Below, piece after piece: positions 4,557 to 40,107 of a stretch of DNA of 64,000 nucleotides. The DNA is from Dialister succinatiphilus YIT 11850 (GTDB lineage Bacteria > Bacillota > Negativicutes > Veillonellales > Dialisteraceae). Location: assembly GCF_000242435.1 (NCBI RefSeq), contig NZ_JH591187.1:656291-720290 (forward strand), written 5' to 3'. Both the position numbers and the translations under genes were made by a program. The notes below the pieces were generated by a model. It did not search any database and was not told the origin of the DNA. It saw nothing but the letters and a program-made list of their open reading frames with translations. How positions within the stretch are numbered: position 1 is the first letter of the stretch; each line of letters begins with the position of its first letter.

Positions 4557-4801
4557 CCATTGAGGAAATGCCTTCCCACACGCACAAATACAAGCTTTTC
4601 AGTGACAATCTAGGCACTACGCTAGAAGACTCCAAAGGGGGCAAGTTTATGGCGGGCAGGGCTGGTGCAAATGCGCATACTGCATTCTTGTGCGGTCCAG
4701 GATTAAGCAATGAAAATCATTTGTATCCAACGGGCGGAGATGCGGCGCATATGAACATGCAACCATATAAGGTTGTTTATATCTTTCATAGGACCGCATA
4801 A
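4557..4801 (+). other. silent tail-fibre tip cassette A1 (shufflon A)
   Basis: This promoterless partial coding segment lies on the strand opposite to the fibre gene. It opens with the shared core CCATTGAGGAA (frame xIEE) and encodes about 80 residues starting MPSHTHKYK and ending PYKVVYIFHRTA with a TAA stop. The ending matches the expressed fibre tip (NMPPYVTVYIFHR), so it is an alternative C-terminus. Inversion between this core and the one at 5527..5537 would place it in frame behind the constant region. Confidence 0.85.
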
Positions 4802-4804
4802 CCT

Positions 4805-5043
4805 CCATTGAGGAATTGGCTCCTCACATGCATCAAGAGAGAATGACAACATCTGATGGGAATCCTAATCCGATTGTTAACTTAGAAACCAGTGGGAATT
4901 TAAGTGGAGCAACTGTTCCTCAGCGTTTTGGATATACAAACAAGGCTACTGATACGGTAAATACAGTTAGTGTTGGCGGCGACAAACCACATAACAACAT
5001 GCAACCTTATCAAACTGTTTACATCTTTAAACGGTCCTCCTAA
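4805..5043 (+). other. silent tail-fibre tip cassette A2 (shufflon A)
   Basis: It begins with CCATTGAGGAA three bases after the stop of cassette A1, continues in the same reading phase (SIEELAPHMHQ) and ends NMQPYQTVYIFKRSS, stop TAA. It carries no start signal of its own. Its end overlaps the end of the opposite-strand cassette A3 by 17 bases. Inversion between 4805..4815 and 5527..5537 would make it the expressed tip. Confidence 0.85.
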
Positions 5044-5265
5044 AAATATAAACGACTTTGTAAGGCTCCATGTTGTTGTGCGGCACATTGCCGCCTTGTG
5101 GGTAGACTGTATCTTGAGTAATATGTCCAGTGTATGTTGTTCCACTAGTGTTCAACGCATGATCATAGTTAAAAACGTATTTCTGGGAATTGGCAGTGTC
5201 TACAGCCCAGCCAACATATCCACCTACATAAAAGGAGTGCACATGATTTGCTAATTCCTCAATGG
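5027..5265 (-). other. silent tail-fibre tip cassette A3 (shufflon A)
   Basis: It is on the same strand as the fibre gene but lies downstream of its stop, beginning at the core CCATTGAGGAA read on the minus strand (5255..5265). It encodes SIEELANHVHSFYVGG and ends NMEPYKVVYIFRRTV. The previous tip ends with TAG four bases before this core. It shares the common core phase, so it can become expressed after inversions that reorder the array. Confidence 0.83.
5255..5265 (-). repeat. shufflon A core site 3
   Basis: CCATTGAGGAA on the minus strand. Other copies are 4557..4567 (+), 4805..4815 (+) and 5527..5537 (-). Two copies point each way. Confidence 0.75.
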
Positions 5266-5268
5266 ATA

Positions 5269-6153
5269 CTATTTCAGCCTATGGAATATGTACACAGTCA
5301 CATATGGCGGCATGTTATTATGGGGCACATCATTGCCGAAATTCATTGATATGATATCAGTATTTTGTGCTGCGGAAGGACCGGATTGAATAGAGCCGCC
5401 CCATTCGCCCCCTCCGTGCTGCTTATACGTGAAAACACCGTTCGGACTCTTATTAAACCCACCGGCTACAATATTACTATCACCATTGAGTAACCTAAAC
5501 TGTAAGTCGCCTTTTACAACAGGCAATTCCTCAATGGATAATTTGTGTTTTTCTTCACCGCCGGTAGCTCCTGCATTATAGACTGTCCCACTATCCGCCT
5601 TGCCAGCGCCAATGAGCACACGTCCTGCCGCCGTCTGTACCCATGTGGTGTCACTCATGTAAGGAAGATAAGTGGATGGATTGGCCGATTTATCTGAGTA
5701 GATGTAACTCCCCACCGGGTACTGGGCATGCATGGTGTCCGAAAGCGTTTTTGTAATTTCCGACTTTATCGTATTATGCAGAGAATTAATGGCGCTTGTG
5801 ATAGCCTTGTTCATCTCGCTGACCATTGTATCCTGTGAGTCGGTATTTACCTTCCATTTGCAGGAACCATCGGCCACCGTCGTACCGTAGGCAGTCCATT
5901 TTGGCTCCGTGGTTCCGCTTGTACCTGCAGTGGTGCAGGTGGCAACGCATCCGGCAGGCAGGTTCGGGCTTCGGATGATGGCGCCGACGGTGTAGGACGT
6001 TGACGGCTGCCAAATGCCACTGGCAAGGTTCATGACTACATTGTTTTGATTTTTCATGAAGTCATACATATTGGCAAAGGTAGTTGGCTTGGACGTATCG
6101 TCCCATGTGCCGTAGCCGTCCTTGATAAAGTCCTTACATTTTTCAATGGTCAT
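5269..6153 (-). CDS. tail fibre / receptor-binding protein A with switchable C-terminus
   Basis: The predicted protein has 294 residues. The constant part (about residues 1 to 206) has an N-terminal phage attachment region, a WQPSTSYTVGAIIRSP segment shared with fibre B, a short predicted helix, and a YPVGSYIYS...TWVQTAAGRVLIGAGKA stretch typical of baseplate or fibre proteins. The variable tip starts at the core CCATTGAGGAA (SIEEL) and ends HNNMPPYVTVYIFHR. Receptor binding is inferred. Its start overlaps the stop of a 42-residue upstream protein (ATGA). Three alternative tips lie downstream. Confidence 0.85.
   Translation of the reverse strand: MTIEKCKDFIKDGYGTWDDTSKPTTFANMYDFMKNQNNVVMNLASGIWQPSTSYTVGAIIRSPNLPAGCVATCTTAGTSGTTEPKWTAYGTTVADGSCKWKVNTDSQDTMVSEMNKAITSAINSLHNTIKSEITKTLSDTMHAQYPVGSYIYSDKSANPSTYLPYMSDTTWVQTAAGRVLIGAGKADSGTVYNAGATGGEEKHKLSIEELPVVKGDLQFRLLNGDSNIVAGGFNKSPNGVFTYKQHGGGEWGGSIQSGPSAAQNTDIISMNFGNDVPHNNMPPYVTVYIFHRLK
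5527..5537 (-). repeat. shufflon A core site in the expressed gene
   Basis: The expressed copy of CCATTGAGGAA (minus strand) marks the boundary between constant fibre sequence and variable tip. The two plus-strand copies at 4557 and 4805 are inverted relative to it, which permits tip exchange by inversion. Confidence 0.75.
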
Positions 6154-6752: not shown

Positions 6753-7763
6753 ATGAAAAACCCAAATGGGTATGGTTGCATAAAGCATTTAAGCGGTTCA
6801 CGGAGGAACCCGTGGGCGTTCGTAGTGACGGAAAACGGTAAGCAGAAGGTAAAGGGTTACTTCCCGACTAAGTAGGAAGCCCTTGCGTTTCAGGTCGATT
6901 GGAACAAATCGCATGACCGGCACCGCCTTTCTAAAATAACATTTAGTGAGTTGTACCTACGATGGAAACCGAAGCACGTCGAATACTTTCGTGTCACAGA
7001 ATCAACAGTTAAAGGCTATGAATCAGCGTATAAGCACTGTTCAAGCCTCTATGACAGACCTGTGGAGGACATAAGGTATAAAGACTTACAGGCAGTCATT
7101 GACTCCATGCAGGGCCTATCTTATGCGTCGAAAAAGAAGGTAAGGAACCTGCTTTCTTTAACTTTCGCTTATGCACGGAAGATGGAATACACAAGCCGTG
7201 ACTTTACGGGGCTTATCCACATCGGTAGAAACAGACCTGTGAATCCGCATCACGCCATTAGCAAGCGGAAAATCAATCAGCTTTGGAAACTGGTTTCTAC
7301 CGTACCGGACGTTGACTTGGTGCTGATTCTCATCTACACCGGCTTGCGGAATGGAGAGCTTAGGAACCTTCTCAAGTCTGACATTAACCGCAGGCAGAAA
7401 TTCCTGCGGGTCACCAAGTCCAAAACGGCCGCCGGTATCCGCATTGTCCCCATTCATCACCTCATCTGGCCATTGATTGAAAAACGCCTTGCAAGCGAAG
7501 GCCCCTATCTCGTGAACGTCCAGGGCAAGCCCTACGACTATAGCCGTTTTGCAAGGACGTTTAGGAGAGTCATGAAACTCGTCCACGGTGAGAAGCACAA
7601 GCCGCACGACACTCGCCATACCTGTGCTACCCTGCTTGACGGTGCAGAAGTGAATGAAAATGCACGGAAGATGATTCTCGGCCATGCCCGGCAGGGCGTA
7701 ACCAACAGTGTGTACACCCATAAGACGCTCCGGCAGCTCCGGAAAGCCATTGAGTCCCTGTGA
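6753..7763 (+). CDS. tyrosine recombinase between the two fibre loci, interrupted by an in-frame amber codon
   Basis: Candidate Rci-like shufflon recombinase that would invert the fibre-tip cassettes. The frame from ATG 6753 (AGAAGGGAG upstream) encodes MKNPNGYG...VKGYFPTK, an arm-binding domain, then TAG at 6873..6875 (codon 41), then EALAFQVDW and the core-binding domain from ITFSELY. After the amber codon the frame stays open to 7763. Counting from a possible TTG restart at 6951 (270 residues), the catalytic set is complete: Arg133, Lys158, His219, Arg222, His245, Tyr255. It is the only late-region gene on the plus strand and lies between the arrays. It is distinct from the integrase near attR. 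Shufflon function is inferred from position. Activity is uncertain because of the amber codon. Confidence 0.8.
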
Positions 7764-7941: not shown

Positions 7942-8134
7942 ACAGGGTGGAGCTAGCGCAGGCCAGTCAGTCACTTTTCCAGTGGCCTTTTCCAGCGTCT
8001 TGTGTTGCACCTTTTCCCCTAGAAACGGCCCATCAGACCAGTGGCCACCGTGGCTTGCCTGGCTCTCCAACACAGGAGCCGGTTGTTGGGCCTCTACTGG
8101 CTGTCCAGTGTCCTATGTAGCCATGGGTGTGTAG
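7942..8134 (+). other. silent tail-fibre tip cassette B1 (shufflon B)
   Basis: It starts at the core ACAGGGTGGA in the phase CAG GGT GGA (QGGASAGQS), contains TFPVAFSSV and ends YVAMGV at a TAG that directly abuts the next core. It is on the opposite strand to fibre B and lacks a start signal. The QGG start and FPxxF motif match the expressed tip. Confidence 0.83.
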
Positions 8135-8360
8135 ACAGGGTGGATATGGTAGCGTAGGGCAAGACCAAACAGCTACCTTTACCTATCCTGTTTCCTTCCC
8201 ATATGCCGTCATAGGGGCCCTTTTAGGAAGAGCCTACTCAGCCCATGAAGTGTCCCCAACAATCACCAACTTGCAAAAATCCTATATGCAATGGACAAGT
8301 AAAGGTGCCGGTGGAGCAAGCTATGGCGCCAATACCTTTTTCACAGTAATTGGCTATTAA
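8135..8360 (+). other. silent tail-fibre tip cassette B2 (shufflon B)
   Basis: It begins with ACAGGGTGGA at 8135..8144 (QGGYGSVGQDQ), continues with TYPVSFPYAV and ends FFTVIGY with TAA. The order QGG, FPxxF, then an aromatic end is the pattern of Gp53-like fibre C-terminal domains. Confidence 0.83.
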
Positions 8361-8391
8361 TGTCCGACGGCAAGTCAATCATTTCCTGTAG

Positions 8392-8605
8392 ACAGGGTGG
8401 AAATCGCAACAGAGGCAATCAGACATTTCCCATCGCCTTTTCTCAAGTTTTTGGAGTGTACGCCACCCGAAACAACAATGGATGGGAATATTCCGTTATT
8501 GTCTCGTCAGTTTCAAATACAGGCTTTTATAGCGAAGCAAGGAACCAAGCTAACGATAATCCTTACGATTATTGGTGGTACTGGATAGCTTTTGGAAGAG
8601 GTTAA
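8392..8605 (+). other. silent tail-fibre tip cassette B3 (shufflon B)
   Basis: It begins with ACAGGGTGGA at 8392..8401 (QGGNRNRGNQ), then TFPIAFSQVF, VSNTGFYS and WYWIAFGRG, ending TAA. It is the innermost plus-strand cassette and shares its last bases with the stop of the opposite-strand cassette B4 (TTAA region at 8602..8605). A TAG abuts the core although the previous cassette already ended 31 bases earlier. Confidence 0.85.
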
Positions 8606-8788
8606 TAGCCTACTGCAATATACAGTTTGTTTGTACCATCGCCATAGATGTATAATCCTGTTTTGTCGTGCATCGAAGAGTGATAATCCCAGTCGCCTGA
8701 GTATGCGACCGAGTTAGCGTACAGGCAGGCAGACGGGAAAGAAATCGGATAGGCGGCCCATCCTTGTGAGTAAATATATCCACCCTGT
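8602..8788 (-). other. silent tail-fibre tip cassette B4 (shufflon B)
   Basis: On the minus strand it starts at the core 8779..8788 (RQGGYIYSQGW), contains YPISFPSACLY and ends LYIAVGY. It meets cassette B3 tail to tail. The preceding cassette stops with TAG immediately before this core. Confidence 0.83.
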
Positions 8789-8975
8789 CTATACTCCAAA
8801 TGCTATCCAAAGAATCGCATAGTTGTTGTTATAGCAGCTAAATCCCGTGTTCCAGTACGAATTAATGTGCAGGTTGTTCTGCGTTTTTAAATCGTTCATG
8901 GCGGTAATAAGCGGAGTAAACACCCTTGAAAAGGCAATAGGGAAAGTTACGTTTGTGCTACCATATCCACCCTGT
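8789..8975 (-). other. silent tail-fibre tip cassette B5 (shufflon B)
   Basis: On the minus strand it starts at the core 8966..8975 (QGGYGSTNV), then TFPIAFSRVF and a terminal LWIAFGV followed by TAG that touches the next core. It lies directly downstream of the expressed fibre B stop. Confidence 0.85.
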
Positions 8976-9986
8976 CTACAGGCCAAAGGCAAGGAAGGAA
9001 ATCCAGTGTGTGTAAGACGCACTGCCGCCATAGTTAAATCCAGTGTTCGACACGTTATAGAGGTAGTATTGGCAATAATTACCATCATTCTGCATGGCAA
9101 GACTGGCGCAGTTTGAATTGAACGAGATGGGGAAGCCTACATAGTTCCCATTATTTACACTGGCATGTCCACCCTGTATAATGAGCGGAATGGTACCGCC
9201 CAATTTCACCCACCAGCTGTTTGAGTTGGAGACGTTGCCTGCGACAACGCCAGCTTGCGATTTGATATAGTTCATGATGTCAGTGCCGTTGACCAGGAGC
9301 TTTCCGTCTGAACTTGACAGACGTAGGGAATAATCAGCATCGTCGGCGCTCTTTTCATGAAAGTCAAGGATGCTGCCTACTTCTGCTACACCATCAGAGC
9401 CGATGGCCGGGAAGTGCGTACCATCCCATGCGCTTCCTTTTACGTTTGGCGTGTATGGCAGGTGGTCCAAACCTGTGCCGCCGTGGGCCACGGGAAGGAT
9501 GCCGGTAATGCCGGGTGTTACTGATTTATCAGCTTCATTGAGGTTTACCCTCTTAGTGCTTGCAAGGTCCACCTGTACGGTCTGGCCCAGCATGGCCGGG
9601 GTTACGATTTTATCCTTGTTAGTGCCTGCCGTCACCTCAGCCTGCGTGGCAAAGTCAATGGTCCTTGGGAGCATAATGTAGGCCGCAGTCCCGTCGGAGA
9701 TAGTAGAGCCTACGGCTCCCCAGACAGGCTCAGCGGCGCCGCTGGTGCCTGCCGTGGTCACTCTTGCAATAGTGTTGGCGGGCATGTTCGGAGACAGTAC
9801 CACCTGTCCCTTAATGTACGTCGCCCCGGGCTGCCAGAGAGCCATGGACACAAGGGAGTACATTACCGCATAGTGGTTTTTAAGATATTCCTGAAACTGC
9901 TGCTCAGTTGTGCCCTTGCTAGCATCGTTTGGATCGGGATAGTCAAGCATCCCGTCCAGTGTCTGTAGTTTTTTAACGTCTGTCAT
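8976..9986 (-). CDS. tail fibre / receptor-binding protein B with switchable Gp53-like C-terminus
   Basis: The predicted protein has 336 residues. The constant part (about 1 to 269) starts with an N-terminal attachment region (TDVKKLQTLDG), a WQPGATYIKGQVVLSP segment paralogous to fibre A, and VAHGGTGLDHLPYT, typical of phage fibres. The variable tip begins at ACAGGGTGGA (9168..9177; IIQGGHAS), then VGFPISFNSN, VSNTGFNYG and WISFLAFGL, a Gp53-like tip. The ATG immediately follows the TAA of the tail-tip gene. Five alternative tips lie downstream, three of them inverted. Confidence 0.87.
   Translation of the reverse strand: MTDVKKLQTLDGMLDYPDPNDASKGTTEQQFQEYLKNHYAVMYSLVSMALWQPGATYIKGQVVLSPNMPANTIARVTTAGTSGAAEPVWGAVGSTISDGTAAYIMLPRTIDFATQAEVTAGTNKDKIVTPAMLGQTVQVDLASTKRVNLNEADKSVTPGITGILPVAHGGTGLDHLPYTPNVKGSAWDGTHFPAIGSDGVAEVGSILDFHEKSADDADYSLRLSSSDGKLLVNGTDIMNYIKSQAGVVAGNVSNSNSWWVKLGGTIPLIIQGGHASVNNGNYVGFPISFNSNCASLAMQNDGNYCQYYLYNVSNTGFNYGGSASYTHWISFLAFGL
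9168..9177 (-). repeat. shufflon B core site in the expressed gene
   Basis: ACAGGGTGGA on the minus strand; the other five copies are 7942..7951, 8135..8144 and 8392..8401 on plus, and 8779..8788 and 8966..8975 on minus. Four of the six are preceded directly by TAG. Confidence 0.78.
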
Positions 9987-12926
9987 TTAACCCTCCAGTA
10001 ACTCATTAACAAATCCCTGCCATGTGATGTCCACTGTCCCGGCTACCTGCTTGCCTGTGCTATCCAGCAAGGCAATGACGCAGGGCGTCTTGCTCAAGAC
10101 TTTAACGGTCACAGCATCATCATCCTGCACGGCGTCGATGTGGACCGCCGTAGTCTCATAAAACGGCGTGGTAATCGGGAGCTCCATCCCCTCGGCGGGC
10201 ACCGCCAAATCTTCAAAGTGTTCCTGCCGGTCCGGCACATCGACATAGGCATGGAGGCCTTTGATAATCGTCTCTTGATAAGAGTTGTTCTTTGCCTCAA
10301 CCTTTATCTGGATATCGTCACCGGCCCGAACCTCTACCTTGTCAGACCACTGTTTCCAAAGGTCTGCAGTAGTATCCCATACGTTAGCGTTCTTTTTCTG
10401 AGTCGTCCAAAAGCTGGCGTCCGCCTTATTGGCAGGCCAGAAGGAGGAGTTGAGAGCCAGCCGGTAGTAAACGACTGCCGGTCCCTCAATGTCCGTGGTG
10501 AGCCAAAACTGGCCGCTTGCCGGGGCCTTAAATTGACAGTTGGCAATGTAGGATTGAAAGGAGCTATCCCACATCTTAGCGTCTTTGGTGCTCCAAAACT
10601 TTCGGCCTTTTTCATGCCACATTTTCGTGGAGTTGACGGCGTGGATGTAGCCATCAGATAAGACCGTGCCGTTGTTTTTAACATCGGCAAAGCCCGCCGC
10701 TCCAAAGTCTTTATCAAAGAGGACGTTTTCTTGGAGCAAATCCCCCATGTCGAGTAGACAATACGCAAAGTTTTTGGACTCATTGCCATTGGTGTCCACG
10801 GCCTTTATCATGACGGCGTGAGTGCCCTGCCGGATGGTCTGCGTTTCGTAAGGCTGGGTTGTAATCAACCCTTCCTGGACAGCTATGCCGGTTTCCCAGT
10901 TTAATTCCTTGCCCTGCGTGTACTTGAGGATAAATCCGGCAATGTCGTTCGGGTCGGGATAAGTGTATTTCCACCAGTACCGGCGGATAGATGAGGACAT
11001 CTTTTCAACATTAAGAACCTCCACATCCGGAGGGAGGATCTGCACGGATTTTGGAATAAACGGATAGGCCTGCACATCGGCGAGCGACTGCTCCATACCT
11101 CCGAACACATTAAAGGCGGTAAATTTAAAGTAGACCGTCTTGCCAATGTAAGCATTTTTGAGTCCGGACCGCAGGAATGCCTCATCACACCTTGCAATCT
11201 GCGTACCGGTCGGATGGTACTCGGGGTCGCTGCCAAACTGGCCACGGACAAGTCCGAACAGCTTCCAGTGTCCGTTGTCCAGGAGCTCAGCCGTCTGGTA
11301 AGAGAGCGCCTCTCCGTCGATGTACATGACAGTGTCCCCGTTTTTAGCACTGGTAGCATCCACAGAAGTAAATTCACCTTGATTGAGCACCATCTCAAGT
11401 GAGGTGTCCTCAATCTCAAGTGGCGCAGCCAGAGTGCCGTAGCGTGCCCGGTAGTCAATGGTTCCAAGTTTGCGGTAGTACTCATTAGTGTCGGATACCC
11501 ATACGGAGCACCCGCCCCAGTTGGGATTCTTGCCCCAGGTCCCTAACCACACCTCATTGTCCGCATCCGTCATAAGGGCAGGTGGCTGGAAAATCATGGG
11601 TGGCTCGCAGCTTCCGGGGTCCGGATTGAAATCAATCAGGGGCCTCTCATTTTCGTGGACGTTGTACTCAGCTTCACTGTACACGCCTTTAGCCCGGGAG
11701 ATGGCGGTGAAGGTCAGCACGCCGTTGGTGGCCTCTGTTACGCTGTCAATCATGGCGGGCTGGTTTTCAATCCCCATAGCGGGGTCATTGAGCATGACAA
11801 GGTCGCCAGGCTCTAAACGGCAGAACGCCCAATCCAATTTAAAGGTATATTTAACCCTTTCGTATTTGTTCTTCCGGCACAGTTCTTCGGCGAGCTTTAC
11901 CGCTCTGGTCTTCGTGTAGAGGTAGTGGGCAGAGACAGTAGACGCCTGCCTTACGCCGTGCTCTTTAATGTCATCGTTGTCCTGATAGTTTACGATTTCC
12001 TTTTCATAGCCATTGGACCGGTTCAGAAACTCTACAGATATGCGGTTGTATACTTCTGAAGACTCTTTGCGGGCATAGGAGATGCATACTCCACCATCCT
12101 GGGGGATGAAGTCATCCGGCCCCAAGTTGTACCGGATCGTTTTATCCGGAGTCCAGCTTCCGACAGATCTGTCTGCCCTGGGTACGATCTTCAACTTGTC
12201 GTTGGACCAGAATATATATGCATTGGTAATCGTCGCAATATCGTTAATGATATCTCTGGCTGCTTTTGCATCCGTATCGTCTGACGGTGTGGAAATCAGC
12301 ATGTCAGCTTCTTTACAGTATTTTCGATAGTTGTCGATTCCATCAATCTGCAGCGAAGACAGTCCGATCTTCGACAGAATGTACAGGATGTAATCAGCAG
12401 GGTTTACGTCTACCCCGTCTCCAGTGTCCAACAGTTTTCCTTTTACTTCGAAGTTGTACTGCGGCATGCTTCCGGCATCGCCCAGGTCAATAACTCCCGC
12501 CATGTACGCCAGGCCGCTGTACGCTAAAGCCTTATTCGGATGTTTCCCGGATACATACGCCCATGGCTTCTGGTCAGAAGTTCCGGAGAACAGCGTGAGC
12601 CCCAATTCCTCATTCGGATACTGGTATATATTTTTATCTTTCCAGATCTTACCGATGCCGGATACCGGGCCTTCACAGAGGGCCAAAATTACAGCAACCG
12701 TATAGGTATAAGTAATCTGGGTAGTCTTGCTATGCCCGCCTTTCCCTGACTTCTGCGACGTTTTGTGCTCGTGTGAAGTGAAATCATCCCAGTAAATCAC
12801 ATTCGGCGATACACGAGTCGTTCCAAGGACTTCCGGAACGGTAGAGCCATACTGCGCTGTAGATACTTCAAAGTCAGAGATCTTATTCTCACGGATAGTA
12901 GTGTTATGAGATTTTAAAAGGCCCAT
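9987..12926 (-). CDS. tail-tip attachment protein (lambda J / baseplate hub type)
   Basis: The predicted protein has 979 residues, in the size range of siphovirus tail-tip proteins. The N-terminal part with TYTYTVAVILALCEGPVSGIGKIW is a signature region of phage J-type tail proteins; the middle (LEPGDLVMLNDPAMG) resembles the hub domain, and fibronectin-like segments follow (WWKYTYPDPNDIAGFILKY). The last 250 residues are rich in spaced tryptophans (FWS, MWDS, FWPAN, FWTT). It sits at the tail tip and probably carries the fibres encoded next. It follows NlpC/P60, DUF2163 and DUF2460 genes as in other long-tailed phages. Confidence 0.85.
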   Translation of the reverse strand: MGLLKSHNTTIRENKISDFEVSTAQYGSTVPEVLGTTRVSPNVIYWDDFTSHEHKTSQKSGKGGHSKTTQITYTYTVAVILALCEGPVSGIGKIWKDKNIYQYPNEELGLTLFSGTSDQKPWAYVSGKHPNKALAYSGLAYMAGVIDLGDAGSMPQYNFEVKGKLLDTGDGVDVNPADYILYILSKIGLSSLQIDGIDNYRKYCKEADMLISTPSDDTDAKAARDIINDIATITNAYIFWSNDKLKIVPRADRSVGSWTPDKTIRYNLGPDDFIPQDGGVCISYARKESSEVYNRISVEFLNRSNGYEKEIVNYQDNDDIKEHGVRQASTVSAHYLYTKTRAVKLAEELCRKNKYERVKYTFKLDWAFCRLEPGDLVMLNDPAMGIENQPAMIDSVTEATNGVLTFTAISRAKGVYSEAEYNVHENERPLIDFNPDPGSCEPPMIFQPPALMTDADNEVWLGTWGKNPNWGGCSVWVSDTNEYYRKLGTIDYRARYGTLAAPLEIEDTSLEMVLNQGEFTSVDATSAKNGDTVMYIDGEALSYQTAELLDNGHWKLFGLVRGQFGSDPEYHPTGTQIARCDEAFLRSGLKNAYIGKTVYFKFTAFNVFGGMEQSLADVQAYPFIPKSVQILPPDVEVLNVEKMSSSIRRYWWKYTYPDPNDIAGFILKYTQGKELNWETGIAVQEGLITTQPYETQTIRQGTHAVMIKAVDTNGNESKNFAYCLLDMGDLLQENVLFDKDFGAAGFADVKNNGTVLSDGYIHAVNSTKMWHEKGRKFWSTKDAKMWDSSFQSYIANCQFKAPASGQFWLTTDIEGPAVVYYRLALNSSFWPANKADASFWTTQKKNANVWDTTADLWKQWSDKVEVRAGDDIQIKVEAKNNSYQETIIKGLHAYVDVPDRQEHFEDLAVPAEGMELPITTPFYETTAVHIDAVQDDDAVTVKVLSKTPCVIALLDSTGKQVAGTVDITWQGFVNELLEG

Positions 12927-12928
12927 AT

Positions 12929-36669: not shown

Positions 36670-36702
36670 ATAGATAAGAAATCGAGAGAAGAGGTGCTCA
36701 TT

Positions 36703-37323
36703 ATGAACAATTTCGCTGATAAACTCAAAGAAGCTATGGAAAGAGCAGGTATCAATGCTACAGAGCTTTCTGCTAAAACTGGAATAAGCAATTCTGCGAT
36801 TTCCCGGTATCTCTCTGGGAACTACATAGCTAAGCAGAAGAATCTTCTGAAGCTCTCCATGGCTTTACATGTAGATCCTACGTTTCTATTTCCGGATTCC
36901 GTCAAGGAATTGGATAATAAGGTAAACGTCTATAGAATTCCTGTCGTGGGCAAGGTAGTGGCCGGTACTCCAATAGATGCTATCGAAAACATAACCGACT
37001 ATATCCGGGTTACGAATCCCTCCGCTGCAGATGGCAGTTATTATGCCCTCCATATCACGGGCGCCAGCATGGAGCCGGAAATGCGGGAAGGCGACCTGGT
37101 CATTGTACACAAGCAGGACTACTTTGACAGCGGGGACATCTGCATAGTCCTAGTTAATGGTAATGAGGCTACAGTGAAAAAAGTACAGAAGAATGAGAGC
37201 GGCATCACTCTTATCGGATTCAATCCTGTTGTCTATCCCCCTCATTTCTATAATGCCCATGAAGTTGAATCGCTTCCCGTCCGAATCATTGGCAAGGTTG
37301 AAGAAATCCGCCGGAAATACTAA
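36703..37323 (+). CDS. CI-like repressor with S24 peptidase domain
   Basis: The predicted protein is 206 residues from ATG 36703 (GAAGAGG upstream); a GTG at 36694 is less likely. An XRE helix-turn-helix lies at about residues 8 to 62 (TELSAKTGISNSAISRYLSG). The C-terminal S24 domain has an Ala-Gly self-cleavage site in VVAGTP, Ser122 (GASMEPE) and Lys159 (EATVKKV). RecA-stimulated autocleavage would link induction to DNA damage. Four TTTGCY..TTGRCAAA-type operators surround it. Confidence 0.92.
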   Translation: MNNFADKLKEAMERAGINATELSAKTGISNSAISRYLSGNYIAKQKNLLKLSMALHVDPTFLFPDSVKELDNKVNVYRIPVVGKVVAGTPIDAIENITDYIRVTNPSAADGSYYALHITGASMEPEMREGDLVIVHKQDYFDSGDICIVLVNGNEATVKKVQKNESGITLIGFNPVVYPPHFYNAHEVESLPVRIIGKVEEIRRKY

Positions 37324-37693: not shown

Positions 37694-38797
37694 ATGGCAA
37701 CTTTTGTTAAGCGGGGGAAGAAATGGTTTTATATCATCAGTTACCGCGACAGTGCCGGAAAAAGGCATAGGCATGAAGAGCCGGGAGGCGCTACAAAGGA
37801 AGAAGCCCAAAAGGCCTTTCGTGCTCATATCCGGAGAGCGGACGCCACGGGCGCTTACGTCAAACCGGAAAATATTACGGTGCATGACTTTATGGAAGAA
37901 TGGCTGGAAAAGCAGGTAAATGTCAATCGCCGGCCTGCCACTTATACCCTCTACTCCCAGATCGTACATAACCATATAGATGCGGCCTTTGGAGGCAGGC
38001 TTCTCCGGAGCGTCCTTACCAGAGAGCTCCAAGACTGGCTCCTGCAGCTCAAACAGGAAGGCGCCGCGAAATCCACGGTCAAGGTTGTACTGGCAGTCTT
38101 AAAAGGGAGCCTCAGATGGGCCGTCGCCAACCGCGAGTACATCCAGGTAAATCCTGCAGACAGTGTCACCATCCCTCGATACGATGAAGCTCCTGCTTCC
38201 CCCGGGGTCTTTAGCCAGGATGAGCTGGACCAGCTCTTTGCTGCTTACCCGGAAGGCTGTAAGCTCTATATCCCCATCCGGATTGCGTATTACACAGGGA
38301 TGCGCAAAGGGGAAATCCTGGCGCTCAAGTGGTCAGATATAGATCTTTTTGGCCGGTCAATCACTGTCAATAAAACGCAGTACGCAGATGCAGTGAATGC
38401 CCCAAAGACTAAGAGCAGCTATAGGCAGGTCAGCTTCGGCCAGCGCCTTATGTCAGCCCTGGTCAAGCAGAAACGCTGGCAGGAGAAGAATGTAGGAATC
38501 TGGGAGGACGACTACATCCCCTCCCCCTATGTCTGCACCCGGGAGGACGGCAGCCAGATGACTGCCAATGACATAAGAGCTTTTGAAAAATTCTGTAAGC
38601 ATCACTTCGGCGGCCATTCTTTCCATACCTTTCGGCATACCCACGCTACCAGGCTTATAGCATCGGGCCAGTTTCCCCTGGAATACGTTGCTAAGCGTCT
38701 GGGCCATTCAAGTATTACAACAACAGCCAATATCTACTACTCAGTCACTAAGGAAGAGGCCCGGAAAGCAGCCGACAAAATGGAAGATATACTTTAG
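37694..38797 (+). CDS. int: phage tyrosine integrase
   Basis: The predicted protein has 367 residues. An N-terminal arm-binding domain (FVKRGKKWFYIISYRDSAG) and a SAM-like core-binding domain (ITVHDFMEEWLEKQ) precede the catalytic domain with Arg204 (TGMRKGE), Lys240, His311/Arg314 (HTFRHTHA), His338 (LGHSS) and Tyr348. It integrates and excises the prophage at the 26-bp att repeat, which starts 235 bases downstream. It is transcribed in the same direction as the repressor. Confidence 0.95.
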   Translation: MATFVKRGKKWFYIISYRDSAGKRHRHEEPGGATKEEAQKAFRAHIRRADATGAYVKPENITVHDFMEEWLEKQVNVNRRPATYTLYSQIVHNHIDAAFGGRLLRSVLTRELQDWLLQLKQEGAAKSTVKVVLAVLKGSLRWAVANREYIQVNPADSVTIPRYDEAPASPGVFSQDELDQLFAAYPEGCKLYIPIRIAYYTGMRKGEILALKWSDIDLFGRSITVNKTQYADAVNAPKTKSSYRQVSFGQRLMSALVKQKRWQEKNVGIWEDDYIPSPYVCTREDGSQMTANDIRAFEKFCKHHFGGHSFHTFRHTHATRLIASGQFPLEYVAKRLGHSSITTTANIYYSVTKEEARKAADKMEDIL

Positions 38798-39123: not shown

Positions 39124-40107
39124 ATGGACAATCATTTTTTTCTGCGGGATTTCAGCAGAAATTCGCAAAGTGAGGGCCTCTCTGACAAAAGTATGAATTC
39201 TCTTTCGGTGACAAAGGCGAATCATACGATTGACGCTTATGAATCGGACTGGAATGATTTCTGCGACTGGTGCCGGTATCATCATCAGACCTCTTATCCG
39301 GCTCAACCGGAAACCATTGTGAATTATATCAATGATTTAGCAGACTATGCCAAGGCTTCTACCATACGGCGGCGGATCAGCGCCATTTCTGAAAATTATA
39401 ATGCTTCCGGGGACCATGTGGAAAACCCCTGCCGGGCCTGGATTGTGAAGGAAGCTCTCATCGGTCTTACTCGTTTGAAAGGGACTGTACAGAAAGGGAA
39501 AACTCCTATTTATTGGGAAGAAATTGAGGAAATGATTCATCGCATGGATTTAACTTCTCTTCAGGCATTGCGCGACCGGGCGGTTCTGCTTTTGGGATTT
39601 ATGGGTGCTTTCCGGCGCAGCGAGCTGGCAGGCCTTGATGTGGAGGATATTAGGAAGTACCCCCAGGGCATTGTGGTTACTATCCGCCATTCCAAGACTG
39701 ACCAGACCTCAGCAGGACAGCAGATTGGCATCCCCTATTTGTCTCATTCTTCCATGGATTGTATCCACGCCCTTCAGGAATGGCTGACGGCGGCCGGTAT
39801 TACATCAGGTCCGCTGTTTCGCAGTTTTCTGAAAAATGGGAAGGTTTCCTCCCGTCGGCTCAGTGACAAGAGTATCAATCTGATTGTAAAAAAATATGCA
39901 GCTTCCATTGGTTTAAATCCAGAAATGTATGGTGCTCATAGTCTTCGCCATGGATTTGCTACGTATGCGGCACTTCAGGGGGTGGAAGAACGGCTCATTA
40001 TGAAACAGACCCGTCATCGTTCGGTAGAAATGGTCCGGCGTTATATCAATGAGGCCGATCTGTTTACCAATAACCCCATTGATAAGATTTTTAATCAGCC
40101 AAAGTGA
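39124..40107 (+). CDS. host tyrosine recombinase (XerC/XerD-like)
   Basis: The predicted protein has 327 residues; TAAGGAG is upstream of ATG. It has an N-terminal SAM-like core-binding domain (NHTIDAYESDWNDFCDWC) and the catalytic set Arg164, Lys191, His272/Arg275 (HSLRHGFA), His298 and Tyr307. It lies just outside attR and is host DNA by the att boundaries, not phage. It has no arm-binding domain. Its function may be chromosome dimer resolution or site-specific inversion; the nearest large palindrome is the att site itself. Confidence 0.85.
   Translation: MDNHFFLRDFSRNSQSEGLSDKSMNSLSVTKANHTIDAYESDWNDFCDWCRYHHQTSYPAQPETIVNYINDLADYAKASTIRRRISAISENYNASGDHVENPCRAWIVKEALIGLTRLKGTVQKGKTPIYWEEIEEMIHRMDLTSLQALRDRAVLLLGFMGAFRRSELAGLDVEDIRKYPQGIVVTIRHSKTDQTSAGQQIGIPYLSHSSMDCIHALQEWLTAAGITSGPLFRSFLKNGKVSSRRLSDKSINLIVKKYAASIGLNPEMYGAHSLRHGFATYAALQGVEERLIMKQTRHRSVEMVRRYINEADLFTNNPIDKIFNQPK

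Follow-up and report, generated by a model that had tools for sequence, protein, structure and literature searches.

A probable tail-fibre tip shufflon, and a likely second one, on either side of one tyrosine recombinase gene in a Dialister succinatiphilus prophage

Several described systems exchange the C-terminal part of an adhesin by DNA inversion. In the Rin shufflon of Bifidobacterium prophages, a phage tyrosine recombinase accompanies tandem variable C-terminal receptor-binding-protein genes and 11 bp asymmetric repeats, relatives differ by inversions, and one rin gene carries a premature stop (PMC6109161). The variable genes of a Rin-like system in Eggerthella lenta often encode H-type lectin domains (PMC8778435). 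In the R64/IncI shufflon, the C-terminus of a plasmid pilus adhesin is switched by the tyrosine recombinase Rci at several inverted asymmetric sites, whose core and right side are conserved and whose left side varies; Rci has an additional C-terminal domain (PMC11852207). Tail-fibre C-termini are also switched by inversion in Min (p15B), Cin (P1), Gin (Mu) and the FRphi gin shufflon, through serine recombinases and other sites, and in FRphi one fibre isoform alone permits host infection (PMC13418256). With Rin, Min and Rci as shufflon or inversion parallels, a tail-fibre shufflon served by a tyrosine recombinase genuinely belongs to a known kind.

Here we describe such a locus in a 64,000-nucleotide stretch of the D. 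succinatiphilus YIT 11850 contig NZ_JH591187.1 (the window; Table 1). By description it is like Rin, with a recombinase beside tandem variable tips, short asymmetric repeats, inversions in relatives and a premature stop, and its phage tyrosine recombinase is likewise separate from the prophage integrase, which is the gene at 37694-38797. With R64 it shares the tyrosine recombinase, the several inverted asymmetric sites and the presumed switching of an adhesin C-terminus, and with the Min, Cin, Gin and FRphi systems the tail-fibre C-terminus as the part that would be switched. It departs from each of them, however. Rin has one array per recombinase, with the core TTCCCTAACCC, and lacks an N-terminal arm-type domain, whereas the window recombinase has two flanking arrays with different cores, and most of its homologues, including that of the intact relative L013, are extended at the N-terminus by some 60 aa; the V. 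parvula homologues (281-283 aa) are naturally without this extension. The 336-aa protein runs for 15 residues from the catalytic Tyr321 to its C-terminal end and thus has no domain of the Rci kind, and as a member of Pfam Phage_integrase it is a tyrosine rather than a serine recombinase. What appears to be new is the occurrence of two candidate shufflons with non-matching cores on either side of one recombinase, in Negativicutes, for whose shufflons we found no description in the literature searched.

Table 1. Parts of the two fibre arrays and tyrosine recombinase genes in the window (positions of the window).
Feature	Coordinates	Strand	Basis or remark
Fibre A constant part	5538..6153	-	ORF 6153..5269, Gp10_C/collar type
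Core A4 (CCATTGAGGA), within expressed fibre A gene	5528..5537	-	profile scan
Expressed fibre A tip	5269..5536	-	ORF
Core A3 (CCATTGAGGA)	5256..5265	-	profile scan
Silent tip A3	5027..5264	-	ORF
Core A2 (CCATTGAGGA)	4805..4814	+	profile scan
Silent tip A2	4806..5043	+	ORF
Core A1 (CCATTGAGGA)	4557..4566	+	profile scan
Silent tip A1	4558..4801	+	ORF
Putative shufflon tyrosine recombinase	6753..7763	+	Pfam Phage_integrase 4.3e-19; PHROG integrase; 336 aa in intact relative L013
Core B1 (ACAGGGTGGA), outer boundary	7942..7951	+	L013 homology reaches 7948
Silent tip B1, 63 aa	7943..8134	+	stop TAG overlaps next core
Core B2 (ACAGGGTGGA)	8135..8144	+	exact-match search
Silent tip B2, 74 aa	8136..8360	+	Gp53-like_C 25.5 bits, over cut-off 24.9
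Core B3 (ACAGGGTGGA)	8392..8401	+	exact-match search
Silent tip B3, 70 aa	8393..8605	+	Gp53-like_C 32.8 bits, over cut-off 24.9; structure modelled
Silent tip B5, 61 aa	8602..8787	-	open frame; Gp53-like_C 17.6 bits, under cut-off 24.9
Core B4 (ACAGGGTGGA)	8779..8788	-	exact-match search
Silent tip B4, 61 aa	8789..8974	-	open frame
Core B5 (ACAGGGTGGA)	8966..8975	-	exact-match search
Expressed tip Bx, 66 aa	8976..9176	-	Gp53-like_C 23.3 bits, just under cut-off 24.9
Core B6 (ACAGGGTGGA), within expressed fibre B gene	9168..9177	-	exact-match search
Fibre B constant N-terminal part	9179..9986	-	about 269 aa; ends ...GTIPLII at core; PHROG tail fibre matches
Full-length tyrosine integrase of prophage	37694..38797	+	arm, SAM-like and catalytic domains; not the shufflon recombinase

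A prophage lies in the window, and its fibre genes sit at the left end of the structural module. A tail protein J-like gene (9987-12926) precedes fibre B (9986..8976, minus strand), a 336-aa open frame whose C-terminus is the expressed tip. Across the whole window the core ACAGGGTGGA has exactly six copies, beginning at 7942, 8135 and 8392 on the plus strand and at 8788, 8975 and 9177 on the minus strand, and no others. When one mismatch is allowed, 13 copies are found against 3.5 expected, a number reached in none of 100 shuffles, and the 13-mer TAGACAGGGTGGA has four exact copies in the entire host genome, all of them at this locus. Read in the phase x-CAG-GGT-GGA, each of the six cores leads into an open tip (63, 74, 70, 61, 61 and 66 aa). 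Neighbouring tips run right up to the following core, which their stop codon adjoins (TAG-ACAGGGTGGA at 8132; on the minus strand at 8978), and tips B3 and B5 face each other with their 3' ends, meeting at about 8602. Enumeration of inversions between opposite cores yields 240 reachable arrangements, and through these every one of the six tips comes to lie, head first, at the constant part. A sequence-only reading of this DNA had proposed a constant part with one expressed and five further tips, three pointing rightward and three leftward, all starting as QGG in one phase and joinable after inversion; the cores, their strands, the open frames of 61-74 residues and the enumeration bear this out. 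Its tip motif FPxxF takes the actual form [FY]P[VI][SA]F, and the aromatic ends that it ascribed to the tips are found in two of six. The array shows two general features of phage tail-fibre shufflons, namely at least three cores in both orientations, alternative 3' segments in one phase and a site-specific recombinase gene (6753-7763) at its side, albeit with a frame interrupted by TAG in this copy. Neither this adjoining gene nor the link to a second fibre locus figured in the earlier reading.

What are the tips? That they are Gp53-like, as had been suggested, holds for B2 and B3, which exceed the curated cut-off of Pfam PF21882 (Gp53-like_C), whereas the expressed tip and B5 fall below it. 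An AlphaFold2 model of tip B3, computed with 63 family tips, reached a mean pLDDT of 90, and its best Foldseek matches were AP22 gp53, R-pyocin fibres and Helix pomatia agglutinin, an H-type lectin, at weak E-values (best 0.015) such as one would expect of a 70-residue query. The best fold match, gp53 of AP22 (an Acinetobacter phage tail fibre, PDB 4mtm; TM-score by query 0.78), has the Pfam family Gp53-like_C in common with the tips, but is not known to belong to a shufflon. From this predicted fold and by analogy with published shufflon phages, we infer that the tips may bind a receptor and that swapped tips would bind different receptors.

The recombinase gene directly adjoins array B and lies between arrays A and B. 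Its product gave only sub-threshold Xer-type matches in NCBIfam, and in an annotated phage collection its matches were at most 35% identical, with no similar DNA. A scan of genome contigs with the truncated window recombinase alone returned no relative; relatives were found by the alignment-based scan, in which genomes and viral contigs were searched with the recombinase itself and with 14 aligned homologues. It recovered 25 genome and 57 viral-contig loci (about 80 related loci) from prophages of Megasphaera, Veillonella, Allisonella, Acidaminococcus, Gallibacterium and others, and in the alignment the catalytic Arg, Lys, His-x-x-Arg, His and Tyr are invariant across the family. Just 3' of the recombinase, 52 of the 82 loci carry 2-11 copies of a core of the form [AC]C[AG]NNGNGGA in both orientations, a count that demanded an identical core within a locus and is silent on spacer variation inside loci; several of the core-less loci end at a contig edge. 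The constant-side core stands in the same phase in 47 of the 52 listed loci, redundant copies included, as IIQGG, IIQWG or a close variant, and the fibre-side core nearly always reads (L/I)IIQGG or IIQWG. Protein identity in 'QGG' alone was set aside as the cause of the cores, because third codon positions and the differently framed fibre A cores follow the same DNA pattern. From the linkage and the common core motif we infer that this recombinase family is the probable catalyst. The largest array seen is that of L081 (IMG/VR 2744054519), in which 11 copies of the core CAGTGGGGA are found no further than about 3.1 kb from the recombinase. In Veillonella seminalis (L065/L101), three copies of an inverted core, CCAAGGTATAAA, lie downstream, some 3.5 kb from the start of the recombinase gene and not adjoining it.

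Comparison of near-identical relatives reveals rearrangement at the cores. Two prophages in one genome (L041/L042) are about 100% identical and have intercore segments of 252 and 462 bp inverted or moved; L111 and L112 differ by one 437-bp core-to-core inversion (identity 99.5-100%), and L123 and L124 by an inversion between cores (99.4-100%). More diverged pairs (for example L068/L069, L072/L126 and L074/L119) are also inverted at cores. Since the inversions that distinguish near-identical pairs end at cores, the family really shuffles, and for these recombinases sequence comparison lends strong support to site-specific inversion at the cores. The closest relative of the window that we found, L013 (IMG/VR contig 3300043812_000027), is homologous up to 7948 and again over 9165-12927, that is, to the outermost B cores, and the tips between differ. 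At L013:6992 the outermost core is ACAGGGTATC and its tip begins QGI; the site at this outer boundary is degenerate. For this exact prophage, neither the host genome nor an identical IMG/VR copy (2513237349, L012; 100% identical, possibly the same strain) offered an alternative arrangement; the host genome holds a single copy of the array, and the fibre B stem was not found in five other genomes of the host genus. The earlier proposal that inversion switches receptor specificity is thus upheld as regards core-to-core inversion in near-identical relatives and a recombinase family to go with it; for this lysogen it meets a single arrangement and a premature TAG, and its receptor part draws on the predicted fold and on published shufflon phages. 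In L058 versus L083 and in L081 versus L117, tip pairs are 79-94% identical and the directly flanking DNA is mostly unalignable, which suggests that tip cassettes may be exchanged between phages.

On the other side of the recombinase lies the fibre A array (4557-6153), with four tips and four cores CCATTGAGGA in both orientations. When the constant-side cores are aligned on their common outer bases, as TTATCCATTGAGGA (A) and TTATACAGGGTGGA (B), the flanking bases are kept and the central spacer is ATTGA in A versus AGGGT in B. A site profile drawn from unrelated loci, with the window group and the one A-like class left out and spacer positions kept neutral, placed the A cores at ranks 1, 3, 5 and 32 and the B cores at ranks 2, 6, 7, 8, 9 and 21 among 127,934 positions. 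The A core is read as LSIEE and the B core as IIQGG, and because the frames differ, the common bases do not represent a common protein motif. Megasphaera massiliensis L071:6993-9513 has two adjoining collar-fibre arrays, with cores CCGTTGGGGA and CTACCAATGA, beside one recombinase, and L110:2958-5327 has a double array, with cores ACCGTCGA and ACTATCAGTGA, adjoining a broken recombinase; the second cores of both are without GGA. A tail protein on the L110 contig is about 70% identical in DNA to window 9679-12909 (L011).

How might one recombinase serve these fibres? For locus B we consider it very probable that a temperate phage here carries a shufflon of tail-fibre tips, in which the neighbouring recombinase inverts cores and so fuses Gp53-like/H-lectin-like tips to the stem; array A is most likely served too, and in this lysogen switching is perhaps frozen. 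We envision that the enzyme encoded at 6753-7763 would recombine the short asymmetric cores in inverted orientation and flip the intervening DNA, whereby another tip would be fused in frame to the fibre stem (9986..9179), and that the same recombinase most likely acts on the four tips of fibre A. Tyrosine recombinases need identical spacers. A corollary is that shuffling should take place within A and within B, but not between them. On balance we favour, with some reserve, two insulated shufflons under one recombinase, in which the outer core bases would be recognised and the spacers AGGGT and ATTGA would act as addresses; up to 6 x 4 = 24 fibre combinations could then arise, and the recombinase gene between the arrays would thereby be spared flipping.

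Other explanations fit less of the evidence. If the tips varied without any site-specific inversion, through gene conversion, homologous recombination or a diversity-generating retroelement, this would suit the mosaic look of some tips between phages. Yet the tips are without nucleotide homology to each other outside the core region, and in relatives the breakpoints coincide with cores of 10 bp, a length insufficient for homologous recombination, which makes this explanation most improbable. Catalysis in trans by another tyrosine recombinase of prophage or host, with the neighbour irrelevant, would at least find its enzymes at hand. The window also contains the gene at 37694-38797, which adjoins a repressor-like gene (36694-37323), and, just outside this integrase, a further tyrosine recombinase with SAM-like and catalytic domains (39124-40107), which weakly matches a tyrosine-type DNA invertase model (4.1e-6, below the model's cut-off). 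However, the former resembles an ordinary prophage integrase, and the family of the neighbour co-occurs with the core motif in 52 loci of several genera, so that we hold catalysis in trans to be improbable. Alternatively, the recombinase that serves B may not act on fibre A, whose cores would then be kept for coding of the collar motif and whose tips would be rearranged by homologous recombination or another enzyme. The A core does overlap the codons of SIEE(L/M), a conserved collar-fibre motif, and coding could account for part of its profile match; TVEEMP in the L110 collar gene scores 9.8, be it from coding alone or from a shufflon of its own, and the apparent inversion of A between the window and L013 is weak evidence, because the inverted matches are short and mosaic. 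Against this, three of the four A cores score 16.8-17.8, compared with a median of 3.5 for other collar motifs (n about 12; up to 9.8-12.1), the silent A tips are inverted and in one phase, and the L071 array with core CCGTTGGGGA places the same recombinase family beside a collar-fibre shufflon. We therefore regard an independent fibre A as rather unlikely.

More weight attaches to the idea that the array evolved as a shufflon and was locked in this lysogen by truncation of the recombinase, with one tip fixed and the others left as relics. An in-frame TAG at codon 41 (6873-6875), also present in the identical copy L012, leaves 40 aa upstream, whereas the 90% identical recombinase of L013 is open over 336 aa. 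Recombinase frames are broken in six other family loci as well (L121, L122, L123, L124, L110 and L078), by single-base frameshifts near short homopolymer runs or by a stop; L123 and L124 share their frameshift yet differ by inversion, so that it may be tolerated, bypassed or a sequencing artefact. Given the premature stop, switching in this lysogen may be frozen or much reduced. The TAG itself may lock the array, be bypassed via an internal start or be a sequencing error. Downstream of it, the frame continues for 270 aa from TTG 6951 and includes all catalytic residues, and a protein could start there; the V. parvula homologues do without the N-terminal region, and the pair L074/L119 still differs by inversion. 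The cores are intact and all ten tips (six B, four A) are still open, hence any loss of switching must be recent. Such locking is a serious possibility, though one towards which we do not incline.

Read as a shufflon, locus B belongs to a large family of which little has been described, in which Negativicutes prophages (and those of Gallibacterium) carry tail-fibre shufflons with tyrosine recombinases, and for which sequences give direct evidence of inversion. Within this family, the Dialister prophage is a natural example of two arrays that seem to depend on one recombinase and to be separated only by their core spacers. Such systems would supply new inversion enzymes together with address-coded sites, and the switching of tail tips in gut prophages becomes measurable from existing reads.
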